Shown here: positions 46,735-55,150 of the stretch, piece after piece | Position numbering within the stretch: position 1 is the first letter of the stretch | Layout: each line of letters opens with the position of its first letter | Source of the DNA: Zeus faber | Taxonomy: Eukaryota > Chordata > Actinopteri > Zeiformes > Zeidae | NCBI GenBank assembly: GCA_960531495.1 | Contig: OY482862.1 | Span: 6,963,614-7,027,613 of the forward strand | DNA: 64,000 nucleotides | Direction: 5' to 3' | Notes under the pieces: generated by a model | Told to the model about the DNA's origin: nothing | Seen by the model: the letters and a program-made list of their open reading frames with translations, nothing else | Databases searched by the model: none | Made by a program: the position numbers and the translations under genes

Positions 46735-46936
46735 TGCATGGGTAAAGAGCTGGGGGATGAGAAGGGGCTGACCCAGCCCAAGATGGCAGCATAAATGACC
46801 AGCTTGATCAATACTCGATGAAAATCCCTGAATTCAAATACTTAAAAATAAATAAACAAACAGAAATGGAAAGGGGAGGAAAATCAAGAAGAGGAACCCA
46901 AAAACCTGGCAAAACAACTCAAACGGACCAATAAAG

Positions 46937-47250
46937 ATGGAGGAGATGTCAGGCACAGAGGGTGGCGAAGAGGATGAACACATGGAGGTCGAAGCGCTTG
47001 TTGTGTTGCGCTCAGGTTTGAACGATATCGTTAAGGAAATTCAGGGAAATTCAAACTGAGCTGAAAACAGAGAGAGAACGACTCCAGAGAATGTTGGCAT
47101 GGCAGCGGGTTGGAAATTCAGAGGACACTGCTGTGAGAGCTAAACAAAAGCTACAAGAATTTCAAAGGGAATTATCGACATACTGGGTATGTGAGCGCAT
47201 CTCTGTAACCAAATTAAAGACAATGAGGATGAACAACCTTGACTAATGTT
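46937..47250 (+). pseudogene. L1 ORF1 remnant
   Basis: ATG-started frame reads MEEMSGTEGGEEDEHMEVEA, then VLRSGLNDIVKEIQ and, after a frame break, coiled-coil-like charged residues. The position between the L1 5' region and ORF2, and the acidic start followed by heptad-like KEI and ERE residues, fit the RNA-binding ORF1 protein. No RRM domain can be made out, so the call rests on context. Confidence 0.5.
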
Positions 47251-47589
47251 GATTGCACACCTCAAATTTCTTCCCCATATTTGATGGTCTTGTATGTTAT
47301 GCTTGATTGGTAGTTAAGTGTATATTATCTTCTAGGAATTTGATGTGTAAGAGTTAGCGGATAATAAGACCAGACCTTACTAGAGAGGGGCCCTCTTATT
47401 CTATGGGATATTCCCATGGACCCACGAATGCAACATGGGAGGCGTATTCATACTTGGAAGTTGAATTACTCCTTATTTGATCATGAGTTACGCAATGTTC
47501 CTAGGGCTGTTACTGGTTGTTATGGTTATGATATGGATTCGAGGGAAGTATACAACCTCACGAAAATAATGAGAGTATTATATTACTGG

Positions 47590-48015
47590 TGGCCCATTCA
47601 AAAGGGAAAAAGAAGTAATTCTGAAAATGAGAAATGTTAAATCCCAAGTCACCTTCATTCAGGAAGCACATTTATGTAAGGAAGAACATGAGAAACGTAA
47701 GAAATTTGGTTTTAGAAACACATTCTATAACACATACAGGCAGTGCTACAAAAGAGGGGTAGCAATACCTGGGACAAAATTCTATCAATTTTGAATGCTT
47801 AAAATAAGTTTGTCACAAAGAAGGACAATGCATTATTATCAGAGGAAAATTTGAAAATTAGATGGAAATTTTTATCAAAGTATAAGCCCTTCCAGAGGGC
47901 TTCCACATTTCTTTAAATACTTATTTACGGTTATAGCTTCAGAATCAAAAGGCATTGTAGTGTGTGCAGGAGATTTTAATGTGATACTAGATCACAAGAT
48001 AGACAGAATAAAAGA
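47590..48015 (+). pseudogene. L1 ORF2 endonuclease remnant
   Basis: Frames across this stretch show VILKMRNVKSQVTFIQEAHL, which matches the usual FIQETHL segment with glutamate in the active site. They then show EEHEKRKKFGF, a YKRGVAI segment and VVCAGDFNVILDHKIDR, the GDFN catalytic motif. Several frameshifts and a stop lie between them. The remnant ends abruptly at a perfect inverted repeat at 48015, where codons for the rest of the domain are missing. Confidence 0.75.
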
Positions 48016-48054
48016 GGCTTGGTATCACTATCTGTAGATAGTGATACCAAGCCT
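48015..48054. repeat. Perfect 19-bp inverted repeat, 2-nt spacer
   Basis: Arms 48015-48033 and 48036-48054 are exact reverse complements around GT. It lies at the junction of the endonuclease and reverse transcriptase remnants, where several hundred bases of L1 are absent. Confidence 0.95.
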
Positions 48055-49059
48055 TAAAAGAAGAAATTACCCCTCTTCTTACATCATTCTTTAACTTCAC
48101 TTAAAGAAGGCTACCTACCCCCCTCATGGAAAGAGGCAATAATTACTGTTATTCCCAAAGAGGGAAAAGACACAGAATACTGTAGCAGTGTTAGACCCAT
48201 ATCTACAGTATTCTCAATATGGACTACAAGATCTACACATCTATTATAGCAAAGAGATATAAGAAATTTATGACAAAGATCAAATCGGTTTTATTGTAGG
48301 ATGCCAAGCACAACACAACAATAGGAGTACTCTGCAAATAATCAACTTGACACAAATGAAAAAAAAAAGTTATATTTTGATTGGTTTCATTGGTTTCGTA
48401 TCAAGTCTTGATGCCGAAAAGGCTTCGGATAGTGTGAATTGGAACTTCCTGTATATAGTATAAGAGTGTTTTGGATTCAACAAAGACTCAATTAAGTGCA
48501 TTAAAATTATCTATCAATATCCTACAAATCCTGCCCTCCTTTTTGCCACAAAGTGACGAAATAAAAGGAATTAATATGAAAGGACAGTAACACACAATCA
48601 GCATTTGCGGATGATACCATAATATACCTGGAGAGCCCCAATACAAGCTTTACCCAGATGATGAACCTTATAAACACATATTGTGGTCACTCAGGATACA
48701 AAGTAAATGTGAATTCAACACATATTTTGGCCTTTGCCTATACTCCATCCCAAGAAATGTAGAGATCTTTCCAAATTAAATGGGACTCTTAAACTATAAA
48801 ACACCTTGGTGTGAGTTTCACAAAACGTCTAACTCATCTTTATATCCACACTATGACCAGATAAATTTTCAGAATAGAAGAGACATACAGCGATGTTAAG
48901 CCTTTTCATTAGACTTTAGCTCCAGATTTGAATTAATCAAAATTAACATTTCCCTCAGCATTTCCCTCTTTCTTTCCTCATATTGAGATCCCTCAAGAAA
49001 AGTAAAAAAAAATACAACTGGCCAAAGATAAAGGTGGTATGGCACTCCCAAACTTAAAA

Positions 49060-49095
<36 letters not shown>

Positions 49096-52865: not shown

Positions 52866-53620
52866 CAGGGGGGCCCAATTCGTTGATCACGATCGAACGG
52901 TAGATCGCAGAGGAAGTGCAGGTAGATCGCGCGCCGTTCAAAAATGTAATTAATTTCTTTTTTTTTACATATCTAACCAACATGTTTAATGAGCTCAATT
53001 TAGAGTTGCAAGGAAAAGACAAAATCGTGGTCAACATGATCGAAAAATGCAACTTCTGTCCTGCAGCGCCGTGATTTGGGGAACTTTCAAAACCTCACAT
53101 CAGAGCTGGAGACCCAAGGGAATGTGTGTGCGCAACTTGACAATATGCTACACAGAGCAGATTGAAAATTGTCTGTCAGACAAATTATTTCAAGATTTTT
53201 CTTTACTTGAGCCAATCGCTACATTTATGTGCCACCCATTTAGGGAAGATATTGAGGTTGATTCACTCTCATCAAAAATTGCAACACTGTTTCACTTGAA
53301 ATCGTCTGCAGTTGAGGATGAGATGTTGACACTACAGGGTGACATTCAGCTCAAGTCGAGGGCTCATGGACAGTTTTGGAGCTTACTCTCAGAGGAAGAG
53401 TACCCAAATATGAGGAAATGTGCTACCTCCTTGACTGCATTATTCAGCTCTACTTATTTATGCGAGTCAGCCTTTTCCCATATGAAGATTATTATGTCCA
53501 AATACTGTTCCACCATGACTGATGATCATTTGGAAGCCTGCTTGAGGCTGGTTACCAGCAGCTACTGTCCGGCCTATGTAACCCTGGCCGACTCCATCCA
53601 GTGCAAGTCATCAGAGTAAG
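52866..53620 (+). mobile_element. hAT transposon relic in gypsy element
   Basis: The left end CAGGGGGGCCCAATTCGTTG, followed by GATCACGATCGAACGGTAG and GATCGCGCGCCGTTC, is the terminal repeat of a Charlie-like hAT family (family knowledge). The transposase C-terminus follows. I cannot find the right inverted repeat, so the 3' end is missing or decayed. Confidence 0.75.
52981..53619 (+). pseudogene. hAT transposase C-terminal half
   Basis: The 5' part reads FNELNLELQGKDKIVVNMIEK in one frame. After a shift, ELETQGNVCAQLDNMLYTEQ appears in broken form. The longest frame (53047-53619, 190 codons) holds DFSLLEPIATFMCHPF, DEMLTLQGDIQLKSRA, then FWSLLSEEEYPNMRKCATSL, TALFSSTYLCESAFSHMKII and LTLADSIQ-type end. 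This matches SCAND3/ZBED-like transposases, in particular the FxSTYxCESAFS dimerisation core. The zinc finger and first catalytic residues are missing. Non-functional, though its last 190 codons are open. Confidence 0.85.
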
Positions 53621-53736
53621 GTAGGTAATGGTAGTAAGGTAGGTAATGAATTTAATGCTCTTGTGCCGTAAGGGTTCATGCAGTGATGCAAGGTATGGTT
53701 TTTAGTAAGCAGCATGCACTGCCCCTATGACTGTGC

Positions 53737-54144
53737 TATAGATCTGCTGCCAGGCGCCCCTTCCCCCTGTATCAGATTATATAACCTTTCCTGGCCTGAG
53801 TGGGTGGCTATGGAGCCCTAAATTCGGGACTCTCTTGCCGGATAATCCATCCCTCATCTTCACTGGTGGACGCCAGGTTTTTCTTTGTGGAGAAGAAGGA
53901 CAAGACCCTACTCCCCTGCATAGACTTCCAGGGCCATAATGAAGTAACTGTTAAAAATAAGTATCCCCTGCCCTATTATTGACTCTGTTTTTGTTCCCCT
54001 CCATGGTGCCAAACACTTCACTAAGCTCGACCTTCGCAACGAGTACCACCTAGTTCGTGTCCGCAAGTGGGACGAGTGGAAGACGCCTTCAACACCCCCC
54101 TAGGCCAATGCTCGGGCGGTGTTCCAAGTCTTGATTAACGATGT
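53737..54144 (+). pseudogene. Gypsy reverse transcriptase fragment
   Basis: Pieces of the Ty3/gypsy fingers and palm region: [31 protein letters not shown] (then a stop), [16 protein letters not shown] segment in another frame, [12 protein letters not shown], and AVFQVLINDVLG. The catalytic YLDD region is missing: the next sequence is the integrase tail. Numerous frameshifts. Confidence 0.85.
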
Positions 54145-54370
54145 TCTTGGGTGAACATCGGTGGAGGAAAGCAGCACAGACGCGGACCCTATCCTGCAAC
54201 CCCCCTGCTTTATCTCCACCCTCCACCCTCCCTCCATCAAGGCCCACATCCTCTGCTGCCAACGCACCTGGAACAAGGCTCGCTCAGTCCTGCTCCAGAC
54301 ATCCACCTGGTCCCAGCGGCAAGCCAATCGCCACTGGACCCCGGCGCCCCCCTACGTCCCCGGCACATCC
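54145..54370 (+). pseudogene. Gypsy integrase C-terminal fragment
   Basis: SIKAHILCCQRTWNKARSVL, then QANRHWTPAPPYVPG, matches the HIRRCRRTW...RSVLL and ANRHRTPAPxYxPGQ segments at the end of gypsy integrase. It is fused to the reverse transcriptase fragment by a large deletion and passes directly into mid-LTR sequence by another. Confidence 0.75.
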
Positions 54371-54639
54371 CGTGCTAACCTTGCCTTTCTCCCTTCCACG
54401 TCCGTACCGTTCCCCAGTCGGAAACCTGGATTGCTCCTTCCTCATCCACACTGCCCCTTCGATAGTCTCGCCATCCAGGACCGTCCGGTAGTCCCTCTGT
54501 CCAGGATCCGTCGGCCCAATCCAGCCTGACCGGGTCTCACCCTCCATCACGCCCAGTGTCTCTCAATGAAACTCAGTTGTTAAACCCGTCTGCCAGCAGT
54601 CTCTGTGTTGAGTTCTGAGTTTTAGCCGTGGTCCTTACA
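54371..54639 (+). repeat. Partial 3' LTR of gypsy element
   Basis: About 268 bp matching the second half of the 5' LTR: GTGCTAAC, TTTCTCCCTTCC, TCACGCCCAGTGTCTC, AGTTGTTAAACCC and CCGTCTGCCAGCAGT. It ends CCTTACA followed by ATCAC. Confidence 0.85.
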
Positions 54640-54644
54640 ATCAC

Positions 54645-55150
54645 AGCAATATGTACAATAACTAAGAATATACAGTAAATATAATGACTTGTCAGGATTT
54701 GAAAGAGATATGGATCAGGAAATTATGTAAAATTATATAAAATTATTATTGATGTAATGATACAGACATACAGTCAGACAACATTCAAGTCAATCTTGGT
54801 GCTATACCAAAATATAGAGATGAAGAGACTATACAGCTTCCTCTACGATGTACATTCAGGCTAAATGGGAGAGGGAACCGAACACTGAAATCACAACAGG
54901 ACCATGGATGTATTACAATTTAAAATGCATGGGTTTAACCTTTGTTCTATCACAAAATAAAAGCGGGACACTGGTTCTGCTTTTTCTCCGAATTGTTTAT
55001 TAAATTCAAGGTTGGGTGAGAATAGGGATATAGAGTCATACCCTCAGTATGAATTTCCTTCATAGATACTGTGGTGTGGGGATGGTGTGGTTTCAGCAGC
55101 CACACCTATCATGGGTCTAGATAATTGGGGCTCAGGATCAGTGTGACTGC
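54645..55150 (+). pseudogene. L1 ORF2 C-terminus after gypsy
   Basis: L1-like codons continue: AMCTITK, ERDMDQEIM and RLYSFLYDVHSG (also TMYIQAKWEREPN in another frame), then LxxFLRI. They lie in the order expected downstream of the segment at 49490. The similarity fades after about 55000, so the 3' end is inferred. Confidence 0.55.

Follow-up and report, generated by a model that had tools for sequence, protein, structure and literature searches.

We examined a 64,000-nucleotide stretch of the Zeus faber genome (assembly GCA_960531495.1, contig OY482862.1, positions 6,963,614 to 7,027,613; hereafter the window), part of which is occupied by decayed mobile elements. An earlier note, made from the letters alone, had described positions 46735 to 55150 as a tower of four nested levels, in which a LINE-1 (L1) long interspersed nuclear element (LINE) is split by a Ty3/gypsy element that was itself invaded by a second LINE (LINE F) and a hAT DNA transposon. 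We found three levels instead, with LINE F and the hAT relic lying side by side within the gypsy-type element, which in turn lies within the L1 (Table 1). Comparisons were made within the window's own assembly, which comprises 803 Mb in 153 contigs, the window being on contig C18.

Table 1. Mobile-element features of the locus, in window coordinates (LTR, long terminal repeat; RT, reverse transcriptase)
Feature	Positions	Strand	Remarks
L1 left arm	46735..49495	+	matches human L1 ORF2p RT, endonuclease and relative L111; left limit putative, from the earlier note
L1 left arm, parts	~47630-48034; ~48053-49059; ~49059-49190		endonuclease; RT pieces; microsatellite
Target site duplication ATCAC, left copy	49491..49495	.	
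Gypsy-type 5' LTR (TG...CA)	49496..50031	+	44 genome rows, 19 of 44 (self included) covering query 1-535
Gypsy gag, N-terminal piece	50032..50186	+	downstream of LTR in relatives, e.g. L033, L040, L094, L101
LINE copy F	50187..52533	+	5'-truncated; tail (GAATCTT)n; apparent internal deletion near 50853; left junction ~50184-50189
Gypsy gag, C-terminal piece	52534..52865	+	74-123 bp extra near 52776 in the 12 relatives showing a break there
hAT relic	52866..53695	+	begins at CAGGGG (5' terminus); reading frame for the C-terminal part of the transposase; lacks its 3' end
Gypsy pol fragments	53696..54370	+	internal deletions; RT piece followed by short pieces, possibly of integrase; Ty3 RT match and family relatives
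Gypsy-type 3' LTR	54371..54639	+	partial, 5' part deleted; shares loci with 5' LTR
Target site duplication ATCAC, right copy	54640..54644	.	
L1 right arm	54645..54832	+	L111 match to 54813 (DNA), 54832 (tblastx); 54833-54898 unassigned
Repeat R	54899..55582	+	part of another interspersed repeat, cut on both sides; interrupted by 55070-55361
Solo-LTR-like insertion TGTGG...CCACA	55070..55361	+	within R; GATAC at 55065-55069 and 55362-55366

A gypsy-type element inserted into an L1 copy

The outermost element is an L1. Human L1 ORF2p matched the RT piece of the left arm with E=4.5e-10, which identifies it as an L1-type RT, and the piece upstream of it matched structures of L1 ORF2p and of the L1 endonuclease, the best match having E=3.8e-4. 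Pfam gave no match for the endonuclease piece or for the typed pieces of the ORF1 region, and its RVT_1 model by itself scored below cut-off on the L1 RT. Unlike a complete LINE-1, the window copy is decayed and split, and its 3' end was not found within the window. The left arm contains a 40-bp inverted repeat (48015-48054, 95% identity) at the border between the endonuclease and RT pieces, which is possibly a deletion junction; a microsatellite-rich stretch; and a 23-bp tandem duplication (49416-49461) about 30 bases ahead of the gypsy insertion site.

The gypsy-type element has the LTR termini TGTCAC...TTACA, and the two copies of ATCAC abut these termini directly from outside, just as the earlier note had it. 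A first query made by joining the L1 flanks was swamped by another repeat (R, see below), and a shorter joined query yielded four rows: two were the window itself and two belonged to a single relative, L111, on contig C14. L111 matched the left arm at 71% identity over 48123-49003 and at 74% over 49440-49495, and it matched the joined query over positions 252-375, passing through the join at 307/308; when rescored over 252-385, 111 of 145 columns were identical. L111 runs unbroken past the insertion point with a single ATCAC, and the flanks of 49496 and 54640 are thus contiguous in a relative, the arrangement on which the nested reading depended. The codons at the join are near-identical in the two copies (RERGITAICTLSKNGN in L111, CERKG|ITAICTITKN in the window). 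The earlier note's statement that L1 codons continue from 49490 to 54645 is therefore borne out locally, but the window L1 is frame-broken near the join and no long open frame runs through it, so the continuity is not that of one open frame.

The 3' LTR region matches many loci that are also matched by the 5' LTR, which assigns both LTR parts to one family, as the note had presumed. Because L111 is contiguous at the site, the ATCAC duplication sits at the LTR termini and both LTR parts belong to one family, we conclude that, as far as one relative can settle the matter, the L1 predates the gypsy insertion.

Paired LTRs with TG...CA termini and a 5-bp target duplication are those of a Ty3/gypsy element, the 3' LTR being partial. 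The RT fragment agrees with this assignment: a query assembled from two frames matched the Ty3 RT (4ol8) with E=1.5e-8. In the relatives the gag and pol pieces follow one another as they do in the window, and the LTR-gag-pol order of these relatives is likewise that of Ty3/gypsy elements; the family would be one of the sushi-like chromoviruses of vertebrates. The window element differs in that a large share of its pol, and some of its gag, is gone. The typed gag pieces had no Pfam match and only unrelated weak matches in the PDB; the pol piece near 54163-54364 has relatives in the genome, and the PDB gave no integrase for it, only unrelated weak matches. The names gag and integrase are accordingly putative and go by position. 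We rejected the whole of 54141-54385 as LTR sequence, since its alignment score (17.5) equalled the shuffle mean (17.2); the LTR part starts at about 54371. Two gypsy copies elsewhere, L100 and L105, lie about 2.4 kb apart on contig C4 with identical 520-base LTRs, and look like a local duplication.

LINE F and the hAT relic within the gypsy-type element

LINE F has a probable RT domain and shares 5' truncation and a short tandem tail with CR1/L2-like LINEs, to which we putatively assign it by its RT. Pfam RVT_1 matched this RT with E=1.1e-6 and 28.9 bits, slightly below the cut-off of 29.6; a PDB search returned no match at E<=1, and NCBIfam gave a weak group II RT match alone, far below cut-off. 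The 5' truncation is evident from six other copies, whose common sequence extends over 100 bp beyond the start of LINE F in the 5' direction, and matches to the family break near 50853, where LINE F appears to carry an internal deletion. Further copies of the family, shorter pieces left aside, lie in the window at 1589-3094, 3477-4276, 6814-8132, 29631-30970, 39105-40890 and 61475-62612, in pieces 69-92% identical.

The earlier note had LINE F splitting the gag. LINE F does lie within gypsy sequence, but the split is not clean. We examined 28 LTR or gag loci, 14 of which had N- and C-terminal gag pieces in order, and every one of these 14 holds more gag than the window does (48-416 bp, median 338); L100 and L105 are among them and, having identical LTRs, are not independent. 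The insertion of LINE F may itself have removed these few hundred base pairs of gag. The direct abutment of the LINE 3' tail on gag fits this refinement, as does the loss relative to all 14 loci, but a later deletion running over the LINE 5' end and gag would look identical, and the 5' truncation of LINE F is expected either way. We consider removal at insertion possible, if rather doubtful.

The hAT relic contains the hAT dimerisation domain (PF05699, E=2.5e-6, above the Pfam cut-off), and this C-terminal domain and the CAGGGG terminus are shared with hAT DNA transposons, from which it differs in lacking a 3' end. A PDB search with it found no match at E<=1. At the 5' terminus (52866) the flanks differ among the copies that reach the terminus; at 53695, where the relic stops, 18 of the 19 copies shown carry on with similar sequence. 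As with LINE F, the relic was placed correctly inside gypsy sequence, but it does not cleanly separate gag from pol: among 14 measurable loci, 12 exceed the window by 199-516 bp of gypsy sequence at this site and two fall short of it (-115 and -47), the overall median being 434.

Order of events and competing explanations

We compared the end branches of the window copies in trees of each family. Those of LINE F (0.070, 8 rows) and the hAT relic (0.071, 19 rows) fall below the values for the gypsy LTRs (0.12 for the 5' LTR and 0.30 for the 3' LTR in a tree built from 25 LTR pieces, using parts 49769-50031 and 54386-54639; 0.12 and 0.33 in a tree of 19 rows). Matches shorter than 140 query bases were left out of the 25-piece tree and those shorter than 190 out of the 19-row tree; for the other families the limits were 690 (hAT), 600 (LINE), about 330 (R) and 240 query bases (LTR2, the solo-LTR-like insert). 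On this evidence LINE F and the hAT relic look younger than the gypsy element, and their own end branches, being so close, do not order these two. Together, the contiguity of L111, the LTR termini with their 5-bp duplication and the end-branch lengths support the order given in the earlier note, in which the L1 came first, the gypsy element second, and LINE F and hAT last.

The locus would then have arisen as follows. An L1 copy was present first, and a Ty3/gypsy-type LTR retrotransposon entered its ORF2 region, duplicating the target ATCAC, as the intact duplication shows. The gypsy body was afterwards entered by a LINE and by a hAT element, as their positions show and the branch lengths support. 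Deletions shortened the LINE at its 5' end and the hAT element at its 3' end, and from the gypsy element they took some of gag, a large share of pol and a portion of the 3' LTR; the losses themselves are visible against relatives, and their timing is our inference. The adjacent repeat R would have taken in another LTR element, an insertion evident from empty sites, which recombination probably reduced to a solo LTR. We are highly confident of this account, in which the locus is a pile of dead mobile elements left by successive ordinary insertions.

Several observations weigh against this reconstruction. The genome search yielded no more than one L1 relative that spans the join, and a PDB structure search with the joined L1 C-terminal query running through the join returned unrelated weak matches and no human ORF2p. 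No target duplication for LINE F is visible in the window sequence, and the 8-bp left flank of the hAT relic does not recur within 53600-53800, so that no duplication is seen there either. The end branches are based on top-scoring matches in separate alignments per family, and are consequently biased short. Finally, the best tree does not pair the two LTRs as sisters, and their branches are unequal.

The last of these points bears on how the LTRs may be read. The 5' and 3' LTRs are 80% identical over 243 ungapped columns, with a Kimura two-parameter distance of 0.23 (0.19 without CpG sites). Given the unequal branches and the lack of a resolved sister pair, this divergence, which the earlier note had suggested measuring, is a poor date for the gypsy element. 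The target duplication and the L1 join nevertheless lead us to assign the two LTRs to one insertion. It is conceivable, though we think it unlikely, that gene conversion from another family member partly overwrote the 5' LTR after insertion; this would account for a younger-looking 5' LTR beside an older-looking 3' LTR with the target duplication intact.

Alternatively, the LTR parts could come from different gypsy insertions, two related elements having become fused through recombination or deletion. The inequality of the end branches would fit such a fusion, as would the closer similarity of the 3' LTR to other copies (85% over 190 bases and, where the match is shorter, as much as 90%) than to its own 5' LTR, which at 78% is row 27 of the 52 rows found with the 3' LTR query. 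However, an identical 5-bp target at both outer termini and L1 flanks that are adjacent in L111 fit a single insertion. The LTR tree is also star-like and poorly resolved, with the copies nearest the 3' LTR (LTR3) on short branches, and constraining the 5' and 3' LTRs as sisters was not rejected (approximately unbiased test, p=0.365). We therefore regard fusion as very improbable. That the ATCAC match and the apparent continuation of the L1 are mere coincidence is barely credible: ATCAC does occur 191 times in the window, counting both strands, but the chance of an equal 5-mer at two random L1-flank points is about 0.2%, and the alignment of L111 through the join already contradicts it.

Nesting has been used as a relative clock, giving the relative age of elements, and a study of plant genomes reports that for roughly one quarter of the nested elements LTR divergence disagrees with the nesting (PMC7251063). 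Relics nested within one another are commonplace in animal genomes. The present locus is likewise an ordinary case, with a well-supported order of events, and taken singly it carries little weight. It serves as a worked example: the nesting, the empty sites and the branch lengths all give one relative order, and LTR-LTR divergence is unreliable.

Searches beyond the assembly added no confirmed relatives. Scans of viral contigs with the L1, gag and LINE queries gave no confirmed relative outside the genome, and neither did a scan of other genomes' contigs with the L1 query. A scan for the pattern KGITAIC returned 31 stretches; at E<=0.05 none of them matched the queries made from the L1, gag, RT and hAT parts. 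No paper was found with KGITAIC as text in the literature that was searched. At Rfam gathering scores there were no matches in the window.

Repeat R and its solo-LTR-like insertion

The earlier note had carried the L1 up to 55150. This limit does not hold: L1 support ends at about 54832 with the last L111 match, and from 54899 the sequence belongs to repeat R, which has an LTR insertion of its own. Repeat R is abundant, accounting for 38 of the 40 rows of the first joined query; the remaining two were from the window itself. These R loci were found with a query holding only the left flank of the insertion site, and 18 of the 38 were fetched. By BLAST, 54899-55069 is followed directly by about 55358-55582 in 14 of the 18, which is the structure of an empty site. 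A 74-base joined empty site aligns through the junction in all 18, and GATAC is exact in 14 of them; the alignments of L058 and L065 are weak, and three reach fewer than 20 bases past the junction.

We find that the insert at 55070-55361 is best read as a solo LTR. The end branches of R (0.091) and the insert (0.088) are too close to each other, and therefore add nothing to the order of events. Because a stretch that had been read as L1 is another repeat holding a solo LTR, the locus could serve as a test case for annotation. The family of the insert is large, with 5779 first-look candidates, 40 of which were scored; among these 40 rows most matches end at about 55331, and few get to 55361.

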